Shown here piece after piece: positions 2,771-14,048 of a stretch of DNA of 64,000 nt (positions are counted from its first letter, which is position 1; each line of letters begins with the position of its first letter). Where the stretch lies: assembly GCA_013205245.1 (NCBI GenBank), contig JABMNH010000017.1, positions 1-64,000 of the forward strand, given 5' to 3'. Under the pieces are notes generated by a model. It had not been told where the DNA came from, made no database searches, and worked only from the letters and a program-made list of their open reading frames with translations. The position numbers and the translations under genes were made by a program. Source of the stretch: Flavobacteriales bacterium. GTDB taxonomy: Bacteria; Bacteroidota; Bacteroidia; Flavobacteriales; Flavobacteriaceae.

Positions 2771-5700
2771 TTATTTCACCAATGAACCTTCCATAATAGC
2801 CGCAACCACATCTGGATTTAACAAGGTAGAAATATCACCTAAATTTGATGTTTCGTTTTCGGCAATCTTACGTAATATACGTCTCATAATTTTACCAGAA
2901 CGTGTTTTAGGCAAGCCCGGAACAAACTGAATTTTATCTAATTTTGCAATATGTCCAATTGTACGTGCTATTAAATCATTAATTTCTTTTCTTAAAATAT
3001 CTTCATTATCTGGAACATCGTAAAGAATTACATAAGCATACAAAGCGTTTCCTTTTATAGCATGAGGATAACCCACAATAGCCGATTCTACAACATTACT
3101 ATGTTCGTTAATAATGTTTTCTATAGGAGCTGTTCCTAAATTATGACCAGAAACAATAACCACATCATCAACACGGCCTGTAATGCGATAATTTCCTTCT
3201 AGATCTCTAAAGGCGCCATCTCCCGTAAAATATTTTCCAGGGAAAGCTGAAAAATAGGTTTTTTTGTAACGCTCATGATCGCCATAAATAGTACGTGCCA
3301 TAGATGGCCACGGATATTTAATACACAAACTGCCATCACTAGGATTTGTATTTTGCTCGGCACCTTCGCCATCAACCAAACATGGTTGTACTCCTGGCAT
3401 TGGGCGTGTTGCAAAAGTTGGTTTTGTTGGCGTAACACCTCCTAAAGGCGAAATCATAATACTGCCTGTTTCGGTTTGCCACCACGTATCTACAATTGGC
3501 GATTTTTGTTTGCCAATTTTTTCATCATACCAGTGCCAAGCTTCTTCGTTTATAGGCTCGCCTACGGTACCAAGAATTTTTATAGAACTCAAATCGTTCT
3601 TTTCTGTAAACGCATTTCCTTGTGCTGCCAAAGCACGGATAGCTGTTGGCGCCGTGTAAAACTGGTTCACTTTATATTTCTCTACAATAGCCCAAAAACG
3701 GCTATAATCTGGATAAGATGGAATACCTTCAAACATTAATGTGGTTGCACCAGCTGCCAAAGGTCCGTAAACAATATAAGAATGTCCGGTAATCCAACCA
3801 ATATCAGCTGTACAGAAATAAATATCGCCGTGTTGGTATTGGAAAACATTTTTAAAACTGTGCGTTGTCTGAACCATATATCCACCACAGGTATGTACCA
3901 TGCCTTTTGGTTTTCCGGTTGAACCGGATGTGTATAAAATAAATAGCACGTCTTCTGCATCCATTATTTCGGCGGGACAATTCACATCAGCTGTAGCTAA
4001 TTCGTCATGCCACCAAACATCGCGTCCAGACTTCATGGTCACATCAGAATTGATGCGTTTTAAAACGATAGAGGTTTCGATGGTTGGACAGGTTTCTAAA
4101 GCTTCATCGGCAATAACTTTTAAATCTACCATCTTACTACCACGGTAAACGCCATCGGCAGTTAACAACACTTTACATTGCGAATCGTTTATTCTAGTTG
4201 AAAGTGCTACGGCCGAGAATCCCGCAAAAACAACGGAATGAACGGCGCCTATACGGGCGCATGCCAACACGGCAATGGCCAATTCTGGTACCATTTGCAT
4301 ATACAAACACACACGATCTCCTTTAACAACACCTCTGCTTTTAAGAACATTAGAGAATTTATTTACCTCTACAGCAAGCTCGTTATAGGTTAAAATTCTA
4401 TTGGCTTCGTTAGGATCGTTAGGCTCCCAAATGATGGCTTTTTCATTACCACGTTTTTCTAAATGACGGTCTATACAGTTTTCTGTAATATTTAATTTAG
4501 CCCCTTTAAACCACTCAAATTTCGGTGTTTCCCAGTTGTATTCAACAACTTTATCCCATTTTTTACGCCATGTAAAAGTATCTGCAATTTGAGCCCAATA
4601 ACCTTCGGGGTCATTCACACTATGCTGATAAGATTTGTAATATTTAATAAACGAATCAATTCTTAAATCTTCGAGTGTTTGTTTTTCTTTTTCTTCAAGA
4701 TGTACAAACACGCCAATTTTATGAAGCTTGTATTCGTGAATGATTTCTGTAATAATTTCTGGATCATCTATAGTTGAAGGAATTGTGTAGGCAACCCCAT
4801 CGGCTATATTCCGTAACAGCTTACGTAAAATCTTACCCGAACGTGTTTTTGGCAAGCGTTTAACAATCATTACTTTTTTTAATGAAGCAACGGGCCCTAT
4901 AACTTTTCTAACTTCTTGAACGATGTCATGTTCTAATTCGAAACCAGACACATAATCGCCCGATTTAAGGACAGCTAAAGCCAAAGGTACTTGACCTTTT
5001 AGTTGGTCTTCGATACCAAAAACGGCACACTCTGCAACAGAAGGATTTGAAGAAACCACTTCTTCCATTTCTGCAGTAGATAATCTGTGACCAGCTACAT
5101 TTATAACATCATCTACACGACCCGTAATAAATACATAACCATCATCATCAATATAACCACCATCGCCAGATAAATAATAACCATCAAATCGTTTCAAATA
5201 GCCATCAATATAACGTTGGGTATTGCCCCAAATATTAAATAAATTTCCTGGAGGCAATGGTAATTTTACAACCACCAAACCTTCCTCGTTTACACCGAGT
5301 TGGTTGCCATTATTATCGAGTACTTGAATATCGTAACCACACACAGGTTTTGCCGCAGAACCTGGTTTTACAGGTAAAGCTTCAACACCCATCATGTTAG
5401 ATATCATCGGCCAACCAGATTCGGTTTGCCACCAATGATCAATTACTGGAATTCCTAAATTATCTTCTAACCAATGAAGTGTAGCAGCATCGCAACGTTC
5501 TCCAGCCAAGAACTGATATTTTAGACAACTCAAATCGTAATTTTTCATCAATAAACCATCTGGATCTTCTTTTTTTATGGCGCGAATGGCTGTTGGTGCG
5601 GTAAACATAACTTTGACATTATTTTCACTAATAATACGCCAAAATGTACTTGCGTCTGGTGTTCTAATTGGTTTTCCTTCAAAAATAATGGTTGTGTTTC

Positions 5701-6595
5701 TATTTAATAAAGGCCCGTAAACTATATAACTGTGACCAACAACCCAACCCACATCTGAGGCTGCCCAATAAGTATCGCCCTCTTCTACACCATAAATATT
5801 TTTCATTGAATATTTTAGCGCTACAGCATAACCACCCGTATCTCGTAAAATACCTTTTGGTTTTCCGGTGGTACCCGATGTGTATAAAATATAAAGTGGA
5901 TCTGTTGAAGACATCTCAACACATGCCGCTGGTTCTGACTTTTTAACCAACTTTTTGTAACTTACATAGCGTTCTGTTTTATTATTAATAGCGCCCAAAT
6001 TACGTTGGTAAACGATTACTTTTTCTGGTTTATGAGTTGCCAATTTTACAGCTTCATCTACCAAAGGTTTGTAAGCTATAAGCCTATCTACTTCCATTCC
6101 AGAAGTGGCGGTAATAATAACTTTTGGTTTACAATCGTCTATTCTAATGGCTAATTCGTTTGGTGCAAAACCACCAAAAACCACAGAATGTATGGCACCA
6201 ATACGTGCGCATGCCAACATACTAAAGGCAGTATGTGGAATCATTGGCATATAAATAATAACTGTATCTCCTTTTTTAACCCCTAAATCTCGAAGGCCTC
6301 CAGCTAGTTTTTCTACTTTTCTTTTTACCTCGTTAAAAGTGTATTTTATTTTTTGTTGCGTAACGGGAGAATCATAAATAATGGCAACTTGTTCTCCAAA
6401 GCCATCTTCAACATGTTTATCTACGGCTAAATAACAAATATTTAATGTTCCATCTGCAAACCAACGGTCGAATCCGTTTTCATCTTTAGATAAAATAGTT
6501 GTCGGTTTTTTATACCATTTTAAGCTGTTAGCTTGTTCTCCCCAAAATTCTTTAGGGTTTTCTATACTGTTATTATAATTTTCTTGATAAGTCAT
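2771..6595 (-). CDS. Tandem propionyl-CoA synthetase-like / acetyl-CoA synthetase fusion
   Basis: One uninterrupted frame of 1274 residues holds two complete AMP-forming acyl-CoA synthetases. The N-terminal half (about 1-632) resembles PrpE: ATP loop YTSGTTGKPKG at 238-248, the PrpE-type GILRDTGGYAVAL, WWQTESG near 388, and acyl-adenylation lysine K588 in PKTRSGK. The C-terminal half (about 640-1274) resembles Acs: loop YTSGSTGKPKG at 888-898, WWQTETG near 1038, K1235 in PKTRSGK. At the acyl-pocket position equivalent to Salmonella Acs Val386, the first half has Ala (FLAGER, A364) and the second has Val (TVGEP, V1011). This fits propionate versus acetate preference. Both halves look catalytically intact. 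Family members are usually single units of about 630-650 residues. It is last in a tight operon, 5 bases after the preceding gene. Confidence 0.93.
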   Translation of the reverse strand: MTYQENYNNSIENPKEFWGEQANSLKWYKKPTTILSKDENGFDRWFADGTLNICYLAVDKHVEDGFGEQVAIIYDSPVTQQKIKYTFNEVKRKVEKLAGGLRDLGVKKGDTVIIYMPMIPHTAFSMLACARIGAIHSVVFGGFAPNELAIRIDDCKPKVIITATSGMEVDRLIAYKPLVDEAVKLATHKPEKVIVYQRNLGAINNKTERYVSYKKLVKKSEPAACVEMSSTDPLYILYTSGTTGKPKGILRDTGGYAVALKYSMKNIYGVEEGDTYWAASDVGWVVGHSYIVYGPLLNRNTTIIFEGKPIRTPDASTFWRIISENNVKVMFTAPTAIRAIKKEDPDGLLMKNYDLSCLKYQFLAGERCDAATLHWLEDNLGIPVIDHWWQTESGWPMISNMMGVEALPVKPGSAAKPVCGYDIQVLDNNGNQLGVNEEGLVVVKLPLPPGNLFNIWGNTQRYIDGYLKRFDGYYLSGDGGYIDDDGYVFITGRVDDVINVAGHRLSTAEMEEVVSSNPSVAECAVFGIEDQLKGQVPLALAVLKSGDYVSGFELEHDIVQEVRKVIGPVASLKKVMIVKRLPKTRSGKILRKLLRNIADGVAYTIPSTIDDPEIITEIIHEYKLHKIGVFVHLEEKEKQTLEDLRIDSFIKYYKSYQHSVNDPEGYWAQIADTFTWRKKWDKVVEYNWETPKFEWFKGAKLNITENCIDRHLEKRGNEKAIIWEPNDPNEANRILTYNELAVEVNKFSNVLKSRGVVKGDRVCLYMQMVPELAIAVLACARIGAVHSVVFAGFSAVALSTRINDSQCKVLLTADGVYRGSKMVDLKVIADEALETCPTIETSIVLKRINSDVTMKSGRDVWWHDELATADVNCPAEIMDAEDVLFILYTSGSTGKPKGMVHTCGGYMVQTTHSFKNVFQYQHGDIYFCTADIGWITGHSYIVYGPLAAGATTLMFEGIPSYPDYSRFWAIVEKYKVNQFYTAPTAIRALAAQGNAFTEKNDLSSIKILGTVGEPINEEAWHWYDEKIGKQKSPIVDTWWQTETGSIMISPLGGVTPTKPTFATRPMPGVQPCLVDGEGAEQNTNPSDGSLCIKYPWPSMARTIYGDHERYKKTYFSAFPGKYFTGDGAFRDLEGNYRITGRVDDVVIVSGHNLGTAPIENIINEHSNVVESAIVGYPHAIKGNALYAYVILYDVPDNEDILRKEINDLIARTIGHIAKLDKIQFVPGLPKTRSGKIMRRILRKIAENETSNLGDISTLLNPDVVAAIMEGSLVK

Positions 6596-6600
6596 AGCAT

Positions 6601-6819
6601 TTATTTTTTTTTGTTATTATGTAAGCCAAACCAATTTGGATTTAAAAATTTTATTTTTATCAATGCCCAAATAAATAAGAGGGCGAATAATCCCAAAAAA
6701 ATTGAGATTAAAAAGTTGCCATTTAATGCTGGTTCGTAATAAAACCTGGCATATAGTGTAACTACTATATAGATTGTTATAAAAATATCTGACGCTAAAT
6801 TTCCTAATTTAATCTTCAT
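6601..6819 (-). CDS. Small two-helix membrane protein
   Basis: A 72-residue protein I do not recognise by family. It shows two hydrophobic segments (about residues 10-27 and 36-57) separated by a short polar loop, and a basic, Asn-rich C-terminus. It sits 4 bases after the response regulator and 5 bases before the acyl-CoA synthetase gene, so it is almost certainly cotranscribed and real. The context suggests a membrane accessory of the sensor/transport module, but this is inference. Confidence 0.7.
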   Translation of the reverse strand: MKIKLGNLASDIFITIYIVVTLYARFYYEPALNGNFLISIFLGLFALLFIWALIKIKFLNPNWFGLHNNKKK

Positions 6820-6823
6820 AAGC

Positions 6824-7192
6824 TTATTTTTTATTTAAAAGTTCATTTACTTCAATTACTAATTTTTTGGTTGAAAAAGGTTTTGGTATGTATTTATTTG
6901 CCCCTAGTTTTAATCCTAATTCTATATCGGATGTTTTATTTTTTGCCGATAGAATTATGACTTTTATTTTAGCTAAGGCATCATTACTTTTTAAATGATT
7001 AAGTACTTGATAACCGTCTACATTTGGCATCATTATATCTAGTAAAATAATATCTGGAATCGTATTCTCTACAATTTCAATCGCTTCTGCACCATCGCGA
7101 GCTATAAATATTTCGAAATTTTCTTTCTTAAAAATATACTCTAATGACATCACTATGTTAGGTTCATCATCTACTATTAATAGCTTTTTCAT
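6824..7192 (-). CDS. Receiver-only response regulator
   Basis: A CheY-like receiver domain of 122 residues. The acidic pocket (VDDEP near residues 7-11), the phospho-acceptor D52 in LLDIMMP, the LSAK switch residue and the KPF lysine are all present. No output domain follows, so DNA binding would need a partner. It starts one base after the histidine kinase stop and is surely its cognate regulator. In Vibrio and Pseudomonas the analogous kinase CrbS signals to CrbR, a LuxR-type DNA-binding regulator that activates acs. The architecture here differs. Confidence 0.93.
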   Translation of the reverse strand: MKKLLIVDDEPNIVMSLEYIFKKENFEIFIARDGAEAIEIVENTIPDIILLDIMMPNVDGYQVLNHLKSNDALAKIKVIILSAKNKTSDIELGLKLGANKYIPKPFSTKKLVIEVNELLNKK

Positions 7193-7193
7193 A

Positions 7194-9827
7194 CTAATTT
7201 GTATTTAATGGTAATGTAAATGTTAAGCGCGCGCCTCCTTGGGGTTCAATATTTTCTGCCCAAATCTTACCGTTATGGCTTTCTATAATTTGTTTACTTA
7301 TAGCCAAACCCAATCCGCTGCCAGCTGGTTTTAAAATAGTTTGATTTTTAGCTTGGTAAAATTTATTAAATATAAAAATAAGCTCATCGCTGTTTATTCC
7401 TTTGCCGTTATCTTCTACTGATACTTTTAAGTTGTCTTTAACCAGATAGGTATAAATTGAAACAATGCCGCCTTCTTCATCAGAAAATTTAATAGCATTC
7501 GATAAAAAATTAATGATTACTTGTTCAATTCTGTCATCATCATAAAACAATTCGGCATCTTTAACACCTTTATCATTGATGATGATGCCATTATTAATGG
7601 CTAATTGACGTACGGCATCAATAGATTTTTGAATTGTATTTTTGATCGAATTTTCTTGTAAGTCTAATTTTTCTTTACCTGTAGCTAATTTTTCTAAATC
7701 TAAAATATTATTTATGAGTCTGCTAACGCGCTCACTCTCACTCAATATACTTGTTAAAAATTTCTTTTTTGTTGGAGGGTCTATATCATCGTCATCAAGT
7801 AAAATTTCTGACAATGCCCTTATTGATGTGATGGGCGTTTTGAGTTCATGAGAAACGGTATCTAAAAATTCATTTTTTTGTTTGTCGCGTTCTTTGAGTT
7901 CTTTATTAGATTCTTTGGCTTTTTGAGTTTCGTCTAAAATATTCAAAACCTCTAACAAACTAATTTCTTCTTCTTTTACAACCGAAGAAATTAAAATTCT
8001 AGAAGAAGCACTGCCAATACTTCCTGTCAATAATTTTTCTGAGAAATTTACCAATCGCGCATCAGCATATTGCGTATTTTTATCAATATTATATTTCATA
8101 AAAAATAAATTCATAGCACGCTCGGTTCTTTGCTCTCCTAAAAAACGTGCCAAAACTTTTCTTATATCACGCACATAAGCTTCGCCTTTCCAAACATAAG
8201 CATCTTCGTGTAATGCAGCATATTTGCTACTATCTACAAACATTTCGGCAAAATTACGTTCTCTATAACTTCCTATAATATTTACAGAAATTAAGACATA
8301 AGTAATAATGTTAAAAAACATACTCCAAAAAAAAGCATGTGGTACAGGTTCAAGTAATTGTAATCCGAAAAGCTCATAAGGTTTTAAAATTTGAATGCCG
8401 AATAAACCTTCATTTACAAATGTAGATGTGATAATTTCTGAATCTACTATAAAAGGCATGACCAAAGTATAGAGCGTTACTAAAAATCCGATAATAATTC
8501 CATATTTGGCGCCTTTCGATGAGCCTCTTCGCCAAAATAAACCACCAAAAAAAGATGGCGCCAATTGGGCAATCATCACAAAAGAAATCAAACCAATAGA
8601 CACTAAAGAATGGTCTAAGGTGAAAGTTTTATAGAAAAAATAGGCCACTATAATTAATGAAAATATTGAAATGCGTCTGATGCTTTTAATAGATTCATTA
8701 TTTTTTTCTGACTCGCCTTTACTGTATTTTCTTAAGAAACCATAGGGTATAATTAAGTTATTACTCAGCATGGTTGACAATGCCAAAGTTGACACAACTA
8801 CCATAGATATGGCCGCAGAAAAACCACCTAAAAATCCTATAAGTGCTAAAGAACTGTGGTTGTTAAAAAGAGGTAACATTAAGGTATATAAATCGCCATC
8901 AATTTGTTGATTTTGGAAAACAACATTGCCTCCCCAAGCGATAAATATGACAAATACATTGAATAGCAACAAATACAAAGGGAACAACCAAATGACCTTT
9001 TTTAAGTATTTTTCGCGTTCATTTTCTACTACAGTTACTTGAAATTGTCTTGGTAGTAGCATAATAGCTATCATTGATAGAATGCTTAAAAAGAACCAAT
9101 TTACACCGCCTTCTACACCATTAATACTTTGCTGATTTTTAAAATCGGGTAATAAAGACGCTTGTTTATAAATATCAGAAGGGCCATCAAATAAATAAAA
9201 AGTGACATAAATGCCAATAATTAAAAAGAAAAATAGTTTAATAATAGATTCTAAAGCAACAGCTGTAATAATGCCTTTATGACGCTCTGTAGCATCTGTG
9301 TGCTGGGTGCCAAAAAATGCTGCAAAAACAGCTAATAAAATGGCAATATAAAAAGTAGTATCATTTATAATAGAATTTGAACTCATATTGTGATTGGTAA
9401 TCACATTAAAAGTTTCTGAAATTGCTTTTAATTGTAATGAAATATAGGGTACAATTGCCACCACACAAATGATAGTAACCAAAGCACCTAAAAACCGATC
9501 GTTACCATAGCGGAGTGAAATAAAATCGGCTAAAGAAGATATTTTATTTCCTTTGGCAATTCTAAAAATTTTCTTCATTAAAATTATCCAAGCTGGAATA
9601 ATAATAACAGGCCCTAAATAAATTGTAAGAAATTTTAACCCCGAAGTTGTTGCTAGACCAACACTGCCATAATATGTCCAAGCCGTACAATAAACGGCTA
9701 ATGAAAGTGTGTAAATATATGGGTTGTTAACCCACTTGCTTTTAGAATTCTTTTCGGCCCAATACGCCACATAAAAAATTACGGAGAGGTAAATTACTAT
9801 TACAGATATGACTAAAAAGCTACTCAT
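7194..9827 (-). CDS. Histidine kinase with N-terminal sodium:solute symporter domain (CrbS/CbrA-type)
   Basis: An 877-residue inner-membrane sensor. Residues 1 to about 510 form an SSS-family symporter-like domain with about 13 membrane segments. A linker follows, then HisKA with phospho-accepting His660 in SHELKTP, then HATPase_c with N-box NFLSNAIK, G1 DNGKG and G2 GSGLGLA. All kinase boxes are intact. CrbS and CbrA have the same layout, and CrbS controls acetyl-CoA synthetase in Vibrio and Pseudomonas. The likely signal is acetate or a related carboxylate, or flux through the symporter domain. The start overlaps the upstream small membrane gene by 8 bases. The receiver gene follows after one base. 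Confidence 0.93.
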   Translation of the reverse strand: MSSFLVISVIVIYLSVIFYVAYWAEKNSKSKWVNNPYIYTLSLAVYCTAWTYYGSVGLATTSGLKFLTIYLGPVIIIPAWIILMKKIFRIAKGNKISSLADFISLRYGNDRFLGALVTIICVVAIVPYISLQLKAISETFNVITNHNMSSNSIINDTTFYIAILLAVFAAFFGTQHTDATERHKGIITAVALESIIKLFFFLIIGIYVTFYLFDGPSDIYKQASLLPDFKNQQSINGVEGGVNWFFLSILSMIAIMLLPRQFQVTVVENEREKYLKKVIWLFPLYLLLFNVFVIFIAWGGNVVFQNQQIDGDLYTLMLPLFNNHSSLALIGFLGGFSAAISMVVVSTLALSTMLSNNLIIPYGFLRKYSKGESEKNNESIKSIRRISIFSLIIVAYFFYKTFTLDHSLVSIGLISFVMIAQLAPSFFGGLFWRRGSSKGAKYGIIIGFLVTLYTLVMPFIVDSEIITSTFVNEGLFGIQILKPYELFGLQLLEPVPHAFFWSMFFNIITYVLISVNIIGSYRERNFAEMFVDSSKYAALHEDAYVWKGEAYVRDIRKVLARFLGEQRTERAMNLFFMKYNIDKNTQYADARLVNFSEKLLTGSIGSASSRILISSVVKEEEISLLEVLNILDETQKAKESNKELKERDKQKNEFLDTVSHELKTPITSIRALSEILLDDDDIDPPTKKKFLTSILSESERVSRLINNILDLEKLATGKEKLDLQENSIKNTIQKSIDAVRQLAINNGIIINDKGVKDAELFYDDDRIEQVIINFLSNAIKFSDEEGGIVSIYTYLVKDNLKVSVEDNGKGINSDELIFIFNKFYQAKNQTILKPAGSGLGLAISKQIIESHNGKIWAENIEPQGGARLTFTLPLNTN

Positions 9828-10165: not shown

Positions 10166-11878
10166 CTAATTTGTTTCTCCTGCTTTAGAAGGTATTCTGA
10201 TATGATCTACAATATCTTGAATCTCTTGAGGAGGTTCTGGTGTAAATTTTTGTACAATGATAGAAACTGTAAAGTTTACTAACATGGCAACAGTACCAAA
10301 TCCTTCTGGAGAAATTCCAAACCACCAATCGGCTTTAAGAGCACCAACAGCTTCTTTTCCACCATCAAATAAGCCAAACTTAAATTTAAGCATGTACCAA
10401 ACCATTAATGATAAACCTACAATCATACCCGAAACAGCACCTTCTTTGTTCATTTTTTTATAAAATATACCCAAAACAATGGCTGGGAAGAATGAAGCGG
10501 CAGCCAAACCAAAGGCTAATGCTACCACGGCGGCGACAAATCCAGGCGGATGAATACCGAAATAACCAGCAATAAGTACAGCAACACCAGCACTTAAACG
10601 TGCAGCAATTAACTCACTTCTTTCTGAAATGTCTGGCTTGATTATTTTCTTAATTAAATCGTGTGATATAGAAGCTGCAATTACCAATAACAAACCAGCT
10701 GCTGTTGATAATGCTGCGGCTAATCCACCTGCACCAACTAAAGCAACTACCCAGTTAGGTAAATGTGCGATTTCTGGATTGGCTAACACCATAATATCAC
10801 GGTCAATTTTCAATTCATTGGCAGGTCCGTTAACATATTGTATAAGACCATCACCATTTTTATCTGTAAAAGTTAACAAACCTGTTTTTTCCCAGTTAGG
10901 AATCCAAGCTGTTTTAGGATCAGATTTTAAATCTTCATAATTTTTATTACTTACAGTTTCTATCATGTTTGTTCTTGCAAAAACGGCAACAGCAGGTACT
11001 GTAGTGTAAAGGATAGAAATAAATACCAATGCCCAACCTGCAGATATACGTGCATCTTTTACTTTAGGAACTGTAAAGAAACGTACAATTACGTGAGGTA
11101 ATCCGGCAGTACCAACCATTAAAGCTAATGTAATTGCAAATACATCTGTCATAGATTTAGTACCCGAAGTGTATTCGGTAAAACCGAGTTGAGTGGATAA
11201 TCCATCTAATTTATCTAACAAATAGACGCCATCATGACCTGTACTTCCCATGCCTAATTGTGGAATTGGATTGCCTGTCATTTGGATAGATATAAATATT
11301 GCTGGTACCATAAAAGCAAATATCAATACACAATATTGTGCTACTTGTATGTAAGTAATCCCTTTCATACCACCTAAAACGGCGTAAAAGAAAACGATTG
11401 CCATACCCACATAAACACCATTGTTAATATCTAATTCTAAATATCTAGAAAATACAATACCTACACCACGCATTTGGCCAGCAACATAAGTAAACGATAC
11501 AATTAAAGCGGCTAAAATAGCTACGATACGTGCTGTGGTAGAATAATAGCGGTCTCCAATAAAATCTGTTACTGTAAATTTTCCAAATTTTCTTAAATAA
11601 GGCGCCAATAAAAGTGCTAAAAGCACATAACCACCAGTCCATCCCATAAGGTAAACTGTGCCATCATATCCTGTAAAAGATACAATTCCTGCTAATGATA
11701 TAAACGATGCTGCCGACATCCAGTCTGCTGCAGTAGCCATACCATTCATTACTGGGTGAATGTGACCACCCGCTACATAAAATTCTTTTGAAGAGCTTGC
11801 GCGTGCCCAAATACCAATACCGATATAAAGAGCGAATGACAGTCCAACAAGTATCCATGTCCATGCTAATATTCCCAT
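10166..11878 (-). CDS. Sodium:solute (acetate-type) symporter, VC_2705 subfamily
   Basis: A 570-residue SSS-family permease, about 13 membrane helices, starting MGILAWTWILVGLSFALYIG. Pairing with a DUF4212 small subunit places it in the VC_2705-like subfamily, whose members are usually annotated as acetate or cation/acetate symporters. An extracytoplasmic insertion (about residues 305-365) contains an EF-hand-like loop, DKNGDGLIQY, a possible calcium site. It starts 19 bases after the small-subunit gene and is followed by a terminator. With the synthetase and SSS-type sensor next door, the substrate is most likely acetate, perhaps also propionate. This is inferred from context. Confidence 0.9.
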   Translation of the reverse strand: MGILAWTWILVGLSFALYIGIGIWARASSSKEFYVAGGHIHPVMNGMATAADWMSAASFISLAGIVSFTGYDGTVYLMGWTGGYVLLALLLAPYLRKFGKFTVTDFIGDRYYSTTARIVAILAALIVSFTYVAGQMRGVGIVFSRYLELDINNGVYVGMAIVFFYAVLGGMKGITYIQVAQYCVLIFAFMVPAIFISIQMTGNPIPQLGMGSTGHDGVYLLDKLDGLSTQLGFTEYTSGTKSMTDVFAITLALMVGTAGLPHVIVRFFTVPKVKDARISAGWALVFISILYTTVPAVAVFARTNMIETVSNKNYEDLKSDPKTAWIPNWEKTGLLTFTDKNGDGLIQYVNGPANELKIDRDIMVLANPEIAHLPNWVVALVGAGGLAAALSTAAGLLLVIAASISHDLIKKIIKPDISERSELIAARLSAGVAVLIAGYFGIHPPGFVAAVVALAFGLAAASFFPAIVLGIFYKKMNKEGAVSGMIVGLSLMVWYMLKFKFGLFDGGKEAVGALKADWWFGISPEGFGTVAMLVNFTVSIIVQKFTPEPPQEIQDIVDHIRIPSKAGETN

Positions 11879-11897: not shown

Positions 11898-12155
11898 TTA
11901 TTTTTCGTCAACATCATATTTCTTATCTAAAGCATTCATCCATTTAACATAGACAAATATTAAGACTACAAACACATACATTGACCCTTGTTGTGCAAAC
12001 CAAAAACCAAGTTTAAACCCAGCAAATCTGATGGTGTTTAACTGATCTACCAATAAAATACCGAATACATAAGAAACCAAAAACCAAATACTTAGCAAAA
12101 TTGCCAAATAGCGGAGGTTCTCTTTCCAGTACGCTTTCATTTTTTCTTGTGACAT
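11898..12155 (-). CDS. DUF4212 symporter small subunit
   Basis: An 85-residue inner-membrane protein with two hydrophobic helices (about 16-36 and 53-71). It has the family pattern YWKENLRYLAILLSIWF near the start and KLGFWFAQQGS before helix 2. DUF4212 proteins are the small partners of VC_2705-type sodium:solute symporters. It lies 12 bases after the porin gene and 19 bases before the symporter gene, so all three form one operon. Confidence 0.92.
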   Translation of the reverse strand: MSQEKMKAYWKENLRYLAILLSIWFLVSYVFGILLVDQLNTIRFAGFKLGFWFAQQGSMYVFVVLIFVYVKWMNALDKKYDVDEK

Positions 12156-13346: not shown

Positions 13347-13465
13347 AAAAATAGTATTGGTTAATTAATAAATTTTTTGCTTAAAATGTTACTTTTAGCA
13401 CTCACAAGTTGGAAAGAAAAGGTCGTGAAATAAAATTTAATATATCTTTATGTTAAATAGTATAG

Positions 13466-13885
13466 TTATTCTTTAAAACGCTCCCAGCGGATAAGCATGT
13501 ATTTATCGCCAAGTTCAGTAACTATAGTCCCTGCGCCAATAATATTTTTTTTGTCTGCAAAGTAATTTGCCAATTCATTTGCATTTAAAATTTTGTAAGT
13601 AGAATGGTATTCAAAACTATAAGGACGCTTAATTGTGTATTTTTTTACCCAATTACTTATGCTTACGTGAGAGACACCTAGAATGCGTTCAATTTCACGA
13701 TAGCTCAAACCTTCTAAGTAAAGCTGTAAAGCTTTATTAACATAATAAGAGTCTATCTTCTTACCAACCTTATTAACAGTAAAAAAATAGCCGCATTTTT
13801 TACATTTATAACGCTGTCTATCTTTAACAATACCACTCTTAACATATGTATTAGAACTGCAATTTGGACAAAGATCAACGACCAT
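13466..13885 (-). CDS. IS1-type zinc-ribbon / HTH DNA-binding protein, probably domesticated
   Basis: A 139-residue protein with a transposase-type zinc ribbon (C6, C9, C28, C31) and a helix-turn-helix (about 55-85, LSYREIERILGVSHVSISNW) like the InsA part of IS1 transposases. The catalytic DDE domain is absent. The last 45 residues form a different short domain ending TELGDKYMLIRWERF. No inverted repeats or target duplications flank it, so it is not a live insertion sequence. I recall close relatives in many flavobacteria, often near this symporter operon. A co-opted transcription regulator is the likely role, possibly for the adjacent operon. Confidence 0.7.
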   Translation of the reverse strand: MVVDLCPNCSSNTYVKSGIVKDRQRYKCKKCGYFFTVNKVGKKIDSYYVNKALQLYLEGLSYREIERILGVSHVSISNWVKKYTIKRPYSFEYHSTYKILNANELANYFADKKNIIGAGTIVTELGDKYMLIRWERFKE

Positions 13886-14048
13886 ATATATTAATTTTGC
13901 ATAAATATACTAAATTAGCAATATAAAATGTAACAATTATAATTAAATAAAGACTCCCTAAACTGAACACCTCTATTTTATTAAGATTCTGACAAAAAAA
14001 TTGGTTTTAGTGTAAATGTCTAAATCATAAAATCAAAATAAGGGAAAA

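Follow-up and report, generated by a model that had tools for sequence, protein, structure and literature searches.

C0, the protein encoded at positions 13466-13885 of the window (the whole 64,000-nucleotide stretch of DNA that was analysed), is probably a domesticated InsA protein whose binding sites are its own former ends and which serves as the DNA-binding output of a kinase/receiver pair. We are evenly divided on a wider claim, that a whole insertion sequence was frozen into a circuit across several Bacteroidota orders, with the ORF1 protein as a detached two-component output and the terminal repeats as operators. We read from sequence the descent of C0, its linkage to the operon, the selection on it, the site, the resemblance of that site to IS1 ends and the joint losses, and from these we predict that C0 binds DNA and controls the operon in one direction or the other, that phosphotransfer occurs and that the receiver contacts C0. 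The first-pass annotation had proposed a domesticated regulator, perhaps acting on the adjacent operon or with the receiver, and the sequence tests mostly favor that proposal: C0 is single copy, linked to the operon and low in dN/dS, its site is restricted to genomes with C0, and losses are joint, while a mutual-information test of the receiver gave no signal.

C0 adjoins an acetate-uptake operon (Table 1), as was first annotated, and at all loci that offered sufficient sequence its immediate neighbors on the same strand were operon genes. Linkage was found in 115 of 115 loci of a first survey (119 loci with a C0 match, less L077, which is a different gene, and three contigs ending right after C0) and in 88 of 88 loci of a second (93 loci, less two truncated contigs and three non-C0 loci), the two surveys partly overlapping in genomes. 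The C0 stop codon is followed by a short intergenic gap and the next operon gene, with no ORF2. C0 is the sole predicted DNA-binding protein of the cluster; the cluster's regulator is a bare receiver without a LuxR-type DNA-binding domain, and C0 is a separate protein. We take the operon kinase to be of the SLC5 type from the match of its residues 7-613 to the solved histidine kinase 10ed_A (E = 3e-64); Pfam SSF had no match in the window kinase. In the locus survey, the SLC5-type kinase was linked to acs, as in CrbS/CrbR systems.

The composition of the operon varies among relatives. In genus g113, C0 is followed directly by AcsA in fourteen genomes, and two genomes carry C0, the receiver and the synthetases without the kinase. 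In presumed Chryseobacterium-like genomes (f5, g40), and in some of g56, presumably Flavobacterium, the place of the symporter pair is taken by an MFS transporter; at L048, L055, L059 and similar loci, an MFS metabolite/H+ symporter stands in place of the sodium symporter and DUF4212 protein in an operon that is otherwise alike. The PrpE-like/AcsA-type fusion of the window is also found at L039 and L042, and elsewhere the two are separate tandem genes.

Table 1. Features of C0, its flanking elements and the neighboring operon in the window.
Feature	Position	Strand	Remarks
C0 gene, InsA-derived zinc-ribbon/HTH protein	13466..13885	-	139 aa
C0 zinc ribbon	residues 6 to about 35/36		from NF050000 match
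C0 HTH	residues 46-82		Pfam PF13384 at 52-84
C0 C-terminal beta-alpha-beta-beta	residues 96-135		ends in W-E-R-F
UP element	13887..13919	-	two direct 14-mers, GCTAATTTAGTATA / GCAAAATTAATATA, 19 bp apart; predicted C0 operator, putative former IRL
DN element	13433..13464	-	weaker inverted copy of UP; predicted second operator, putative former IRR
Porin-like outer-membrane protein, first gene downstream of C0	12168..13346	-	presumed porin; no Pfam/NCBIfam match
DUF4212, sodium/substrate symporter small subunit	11898..12155	-	PF13937, TIGR03647
VC_2705-type sodium/solute symporter, ActP-like acetate uptake	10166..11878	-	TIGR03648, 850 bits; presumed substrate
SLC5-type (presumed) sensor histidine kinase	7194..9827	-	877 aa; without receiver or DNA-binding domain
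Receiver-only response regulator	6824..7192	-	122 aa; PF00072 over residues 5-115
Small membrane-like ORF	6601..6819	-	72 aa; retained in some relatives
Fused tandem acyl-CoA synthetases	2771..6595	-	1274 aa; PrpE-like half and acetate--CoA ligase (AcsA) half

C0 has the four-Cys zinc ribbon and HTH of IS1 ORF1. The likeness to InsA noted in the first-pass annotation held, as both parts scored above cut-off (NF050000 IS1/IS1595 zinc-binding, 36.3 bits against 28; PF13384, 26.4 bits against 24.6), and the whole-length IS1 model NF033558 scored 86.3 bits, below its cut-off of 100, over profile positions 1-122 of 199. Also as annotated, C0 has no catalytic domain: ORF2 is absent, the column of the IS1 catalytic Asp is variable in an alignment of C0 proteins, and neither the IS1 DDE catalytic residues nor an ORF2 or InsAB' fusion was found at the C0 locus. 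The supposed extra C-terminal domain is instead homologous to the end of IS1 ORF1 and is no addition. A profile of 38 C0 proteins aligned with one IS1 ORF1 over residues 5-127 in hhalign (E = 9e-35, 42% identity), and we rejected an unrelated added domain because this alignment runs through the C-terminus. An AlphaFold2 model built from a 46-sequence input was of modest confidence (mean pLDDT 74.5, pTM 0.50) and gave the strands of the zinc ribbon, helices at 46-57, 62-69 and 73-82, a strand at 96-100, a helix at 102-110 and strands at 118-125 and 128-135. Foldseek returned no match to the model at E <= 0.001. The rows of VIA-align mostly covered residues 43-90 and barely probed the C-terminal fold, and the best of them was the GcrA DNA-binding domain at Z 6.7. 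The closest named genomes are Lutibacter species, with C0 identity up to 86%; the loci found with names include those of Lutibacter flavus DSM 27993 and Mesoflavibacter zeaxanthinifaciens DSM 18436. No paper on C0 itself was recognized in the literature covered, which includes few subscription journals.

By sequence comparison, C0 is a descendant of InsA, the protein that ORF1 encodes in a subgroup of IS1. C0 proteins were monophyletic (support 99/98) and grouped with L276, L077, L308, L309, L310 and L324, in a tree flagged for long branches. Among mobile elements, the nearest kin of C0 are found in IS1 elements whose ORF1 is 144-150 aa long and whose ORF2 is shifted. A search of 159 family genomes with IS1 ORF1 gave 10 matches at E <= 1e-22, five of them at known C0 places. 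A second IS1-like gene in the Chryseobacterium-like genome G424 (L077:7450-7896) adjoins an oppositely oriented kinase and receiver gene; it is 34% identical, keeps the catalytic Asp column and is not a C0. In G560, an IS1-type zinc ribbon (L267, near 6069) lies in frame with a LacI-family-like regulator in a 400-aa open frame, possibly another recruitment of the zinc ribbon.

We propose that an IS1-subgroup element once stood at the head of the acetate operon in an ancestral Bacteroidota and that ORF2, the catalytic Asp and the outer tip of each end have since been lost from it. The ORF1 product would have kept its zinc ribbon and HTH and would still bind the inner part of the former terminal repeats. 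UP, the upstream end doubled into two direct units, would be an autoregulatory operator over the start region of C0 itself, in the manner of InsA, and DN, the downstream end, which in most loci precedes the next gene by about 60-90 bp, would be the operator of the porin/symporter/kinase/receiver/AcsA operon. The SLC5-type kinase would phosphorylate the receiver-only regulator, itself without a DNA-binding domain, and this receiver, once phosphorylated, would exert its effect via the C-terminal beta-alpha-beta-beta of C0, around Arg136-Phe137. Kinase, receiver and C0 may thereby be a CrbS/CrbR acetate system in split form, in which C0 would either activate or repress the operon.

How C0 might be tied to the receiver is suggested by the end of the protein. 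Among 182 distinct C0 proteins from receiver-containing loci, a few of them on truncated contigs counted as receiver-containing, the conservation of Arg136 was 1.00 and that of Phe137 was 0.99; in 15 receiver-less proteins (14 of g113, plus L268), both stood at 0. Between each receiver-less g113 C0 and its nearest receiver-containing relative, identity was 0.78-0.88 in the N-terminal part and 0.20-0.56 in the C-terminal part. G575 (L268) and G681 (L275) had no orthologous kinase or receiver, and Arg-Phe was absent there too. Moreover, L042 and L080, which have the receiver and no kinase, retained Arg136/Phe137 and UP. Thus, the residues follow the receiver and not the kinase. The 14 receiver-less g113 genomes formed one clade in a synthetase tree that included 12 of them; this tree mixes paralogues, with a long inner branch, and was used only for grouping receiver-less rows. 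We therefore count only three losses that look independent, one of which is a single draft genome.

C0 might instead be a local repressor or autoregulator at UP and DN, with no input from the kinase or receiver, and the receiver might act elsewhere, for example, on the kinase or symporter. We consider this unlikely. Receiver loss was accompanied by loss of Arg136-Phe137 in three lineages and by loss of UP in the largest, and both features were kept where the kinase was lost and the receiver remained. In its favor, C0 and AcsA stay together in the 14 genomes without kinase and receiver, and mutual information between C0 and the receiver showed no C-terminal concentration (the C-terminal domain holds 39 of the 106 variable columns and took part in 33 of the 100 highest-scoring pairs). 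Local repression would also resemble Escherichia coli IS1, in which InsA reportedly binds both ends with its zinc finger and HTH and represses transcription of the element (PMC12428005).

UP is the candidate site of C0 binding. In the window, UP ends one base before the C0 start codon, matches the 33-bp pattern exactly and scores 44 bits against -4.2 for the next best match in the window, by a PWM whose training set contains the window UP itself. When the window and 17 Lutibacter-like upstream regions were compared, a nearly invariant block ran up to the start codon and the flanks had diverged. Across Bacteroidota, UP is made of GCTAAWTTRRTATA and GCWAAAWWRRTATA, two direct units at a spacing of 19 bp. 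The 33-nt pattern occurred with at most five mismatches at 188 of 205 loci; the remaining 17 had eight or more and were the 14 receiver-less g113 loci, L268, L269 and L272. Receiver-less L268 has both units at a spacing of 20 bp, and receiver-containing L269 and L272 lack the two-unit UP and show one unit. In 395 whole genomes, a looser pattern that allowed a single mismatch at most was matched 101 times, and the 98 genomes with a match all carried C0. A reversed-pattern control gave 1 match. UP was found in 0 of 14 receiver-less g113 genomes and in 98 of the 99 other genomes with C0. All matches lie within tens of bases upstream of C0 except three, found in G363 (a site with one mismatch), G383 (a second match that overlaps another) and G076 (a contig-edge site). 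The lone single-mismatch site away from C0 could be due to chance.

What UP resembles is the inner part of the IS1 ends. The Tenacibaculum IS1 element has the ends GGCATTGCTAATTTAATATAG and GGCATTGCTAATTCAATAAAG, with which we compared the start of the window UP, TTGCTAATTTAGTATA. A matrix of the first UP unit, applied to four sister IS1 elements, scored best at offset 6 from the tip in 8 of 8 arms (shuffle p 0.00005 to 0.046), and the same matrix gave p 0.005 to 0.08 on two cyanobacterial elements; L311 (a near-copy of L310) and L323, L324, L327 and L077 (ends unclear or different) were left unscored. The outer GGCATTG tip was not seen in any of 78 C0 upstream sequences. One could argue that C0 is a DNA-binding regulator, that UP is a core promoter or leader read by other factors and that its likeness to IS1 ends is that of AT-rich promoter sequence. 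At 149 of 188 loci UP does lie only 1-3 nt ahead of the start codon, and 49 of 131 distinct UP sequences carry TAnnTTTG, the Bacteroidota -7 consensus. The 33-bp pattern, however, is absent at other genes bar the one single-mismatch site and is found in 0 of 282 genomes without C0, compared to 98 of 113 with it. Together with the register in which the IS1 arms match the UP unit, this makes the promoter explanation improbable.

A second, weaker site follows C0. The first-pass annotation reported no terminal repeats, a claim that did not stand: inverted elements flank C0 and match the inner part of the terminal inverted repeats of the IS1 subgroup. A repeat search found 13-nt inverted arms at the ORF ends (13433-13445 and 13886-13898, 92% complementary), and these are the core of the inward-facing UP and DN elements. 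DN directly follows the C0 stop codon, 86 nt before the porin start. In many Chryseobacterium-like loci, DN is exactly 62 nt before the start of the next gene while its distance from C0 varies widely, and DN therefore seems linked to the operon promoter. Comparison of UP with the gap between C0 and the next gene gave p <= 0.05 for the reverse complement in 49 of 95 loci and for the forward strand in 9 of 95, a count that leaves out 14 receiver-less loci and short gaps, and by this measure the DN signal is weak. Most simply, C0 would be an IS1 frozen in place, with the protein and the inner part of each end retained. Alternatively, the sites may have evolved independently toward a conserved DNA-binding specificity.

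C0 is found once in its own genome, in 12 of 60 relatives and in 113 of 395 genomes of the order, as a single copy in 111 of the 113. The two multi-copy exceptions look like assembly overlap (G141) and a different IS1-like gene. In G141:C1, C0 and the kinase each occur twice at the same offset near two contig ends, and the duplication of identical C0 copies looks like the overlap of an untrimmed circular contig. In a phylum set, the C0 profile matched 33 of 395 genomes at E <= 1e-12, three of which (G560, G587 and G598) have IS1 remnants or another frame. In the order, C0 tracked the kinase almost perfectly: the two occurred together in 93 genomes, C0 alone in 20, the kinase alone in 1 and neither in 281. 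These counts include related, non-independent genomes, and Fisher values for them are therefore overstated; by genus, C0 was present in 26 of 109 and the kinase in 24 of 109. The match in the sole kinase-only genome is 691 bp from a contig end. A closer search of the 20 C0-only genomes found the kinase in four, the receiver alone in two and neither in fourteen, whose best receivers were at most 39% identical. These fourteen g113 genomes are drafts of 74-99% completeness, yet the direct abutment of C0 and acs also points to loss of the kinase and receiver.

By copy number and place, C0 lacks the mobility of IS1. A mobile element would be expected in multiple variable copies with terminal repeats, and C0 has one copy, at a fixed place, with repeats that lack the outer tip. 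No copy above 60% identity was found in 72,556 plasmid records, and the plasmid matches among those listed were IS1 family transposases or unannotated. There was no C0 match in 50,697 phage records, and a scan of viral contigs gave one short partial match. On the plasmid and phage records we rejected a phage or plasmid origin of C0. That C0 is an ordinary resident IS1 element or a recent, functionless remnant is scarcely credible and is ruled out by copy number, place and selection, for although its zinc ribbon, HTH and length fit IS1 ORF1 and NCBIfam scores it nearest an IS1 transposase model, its place and strand are fixed across the class, its dN/dS is 0.04, and ORF2, the catalytic Asp and the tips are all missing.

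C0 is derived from a transposase, immobile and under strong purifying selection, and it is predicted to regulate host genes. Residues 6-88 had a median dN/dS of 0.040 in receiver-containing genomes (247 pairs), and residues 97-137 had one of 0.209 (1488 pairs). Values for the N-terminal and C-terminal parts were 0.011 (11 pairs) and 0.065 (12 pairs) in receiver-less genomes and 0.034 and 0.057 in a Lutibacter-like set. In the largest receiver-less g113 sub-clade, the changed C-terminus is conserved (median dN/dS 0.037, 8 pairs) and must therefore have another use there. We rejected a description of the receiver-less clade as decaying, as its C-terminus changed and was then conserved again. At the receiver-less g113 loci L075, L076, L082, L084, L087, L090 and L091, C0 occurs without receiver or UP, and it probably has an altered but real function there because dN/dS is very low.

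C0 resembles known systems in part. With the InsA of its IS1 subgroup (Tenacibaculum plasmid element CP116296 and Methanomethylovorans NC_019972), C0 shares the zinc ribbon, the HTH, a similar length (139 aa against 144-150), a predicted binding site formed by the inner 16 nt of the terminal repeat and the placement of the gene between inward-facing repeats. Unlike InsA, C0 has no ORF2 or frameshift product, a variable catalytic Asp column, no GGCA tips, an UP doubled to two direct units, a single conserved locus before an operon and a C-terminal W-E-R-F. The CrbS/CrbR (MxtR/ErdR) system of Vibrio and Pseudomonas likewise has an SLC5-type kinase that controls genes for acetyl-CoA synthetase and an acetate symporter, a control that linkage suggests here. 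CrbS of these bacteria is a hybrid kinase, and CrbR belongs to the LuxR family and activates acs (PMC5436829, PMC5715377). The operon kinase, in contrast, lacks a receiver, the regulator consists of a receiver alone, and DNA binding is predicted to be left to C0. Transcription factors derived from transposases are best known from eukaryotes. In FHY3/FAR1 of plants, too, the DNA-binding module of a transposase was recruited as a transcription factor. FHY3/FAR1 is Mutator-like and eukaryotic, however, whereas C0 is bacterial, IS1-derived and accompanied by transposon-end-like sites at the same locus.

A protein and a transposon-end-like predicted site are both kept at one bacterial locus, such that the sequence itself records how a mobile element could become a regulator. 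The receiver-less lineages are natural mutants of the system. If our reading is true, it would explain by what route an acetate-linked kinase acts on DNA when its partner is only a receiver, and it would give a function to proteins resembling the "IS1 family transposase" in hundreds of genomes. Ultimately, C0 appears to be a permanent switch before the acetate-uptake genes in many Bacteroidota.
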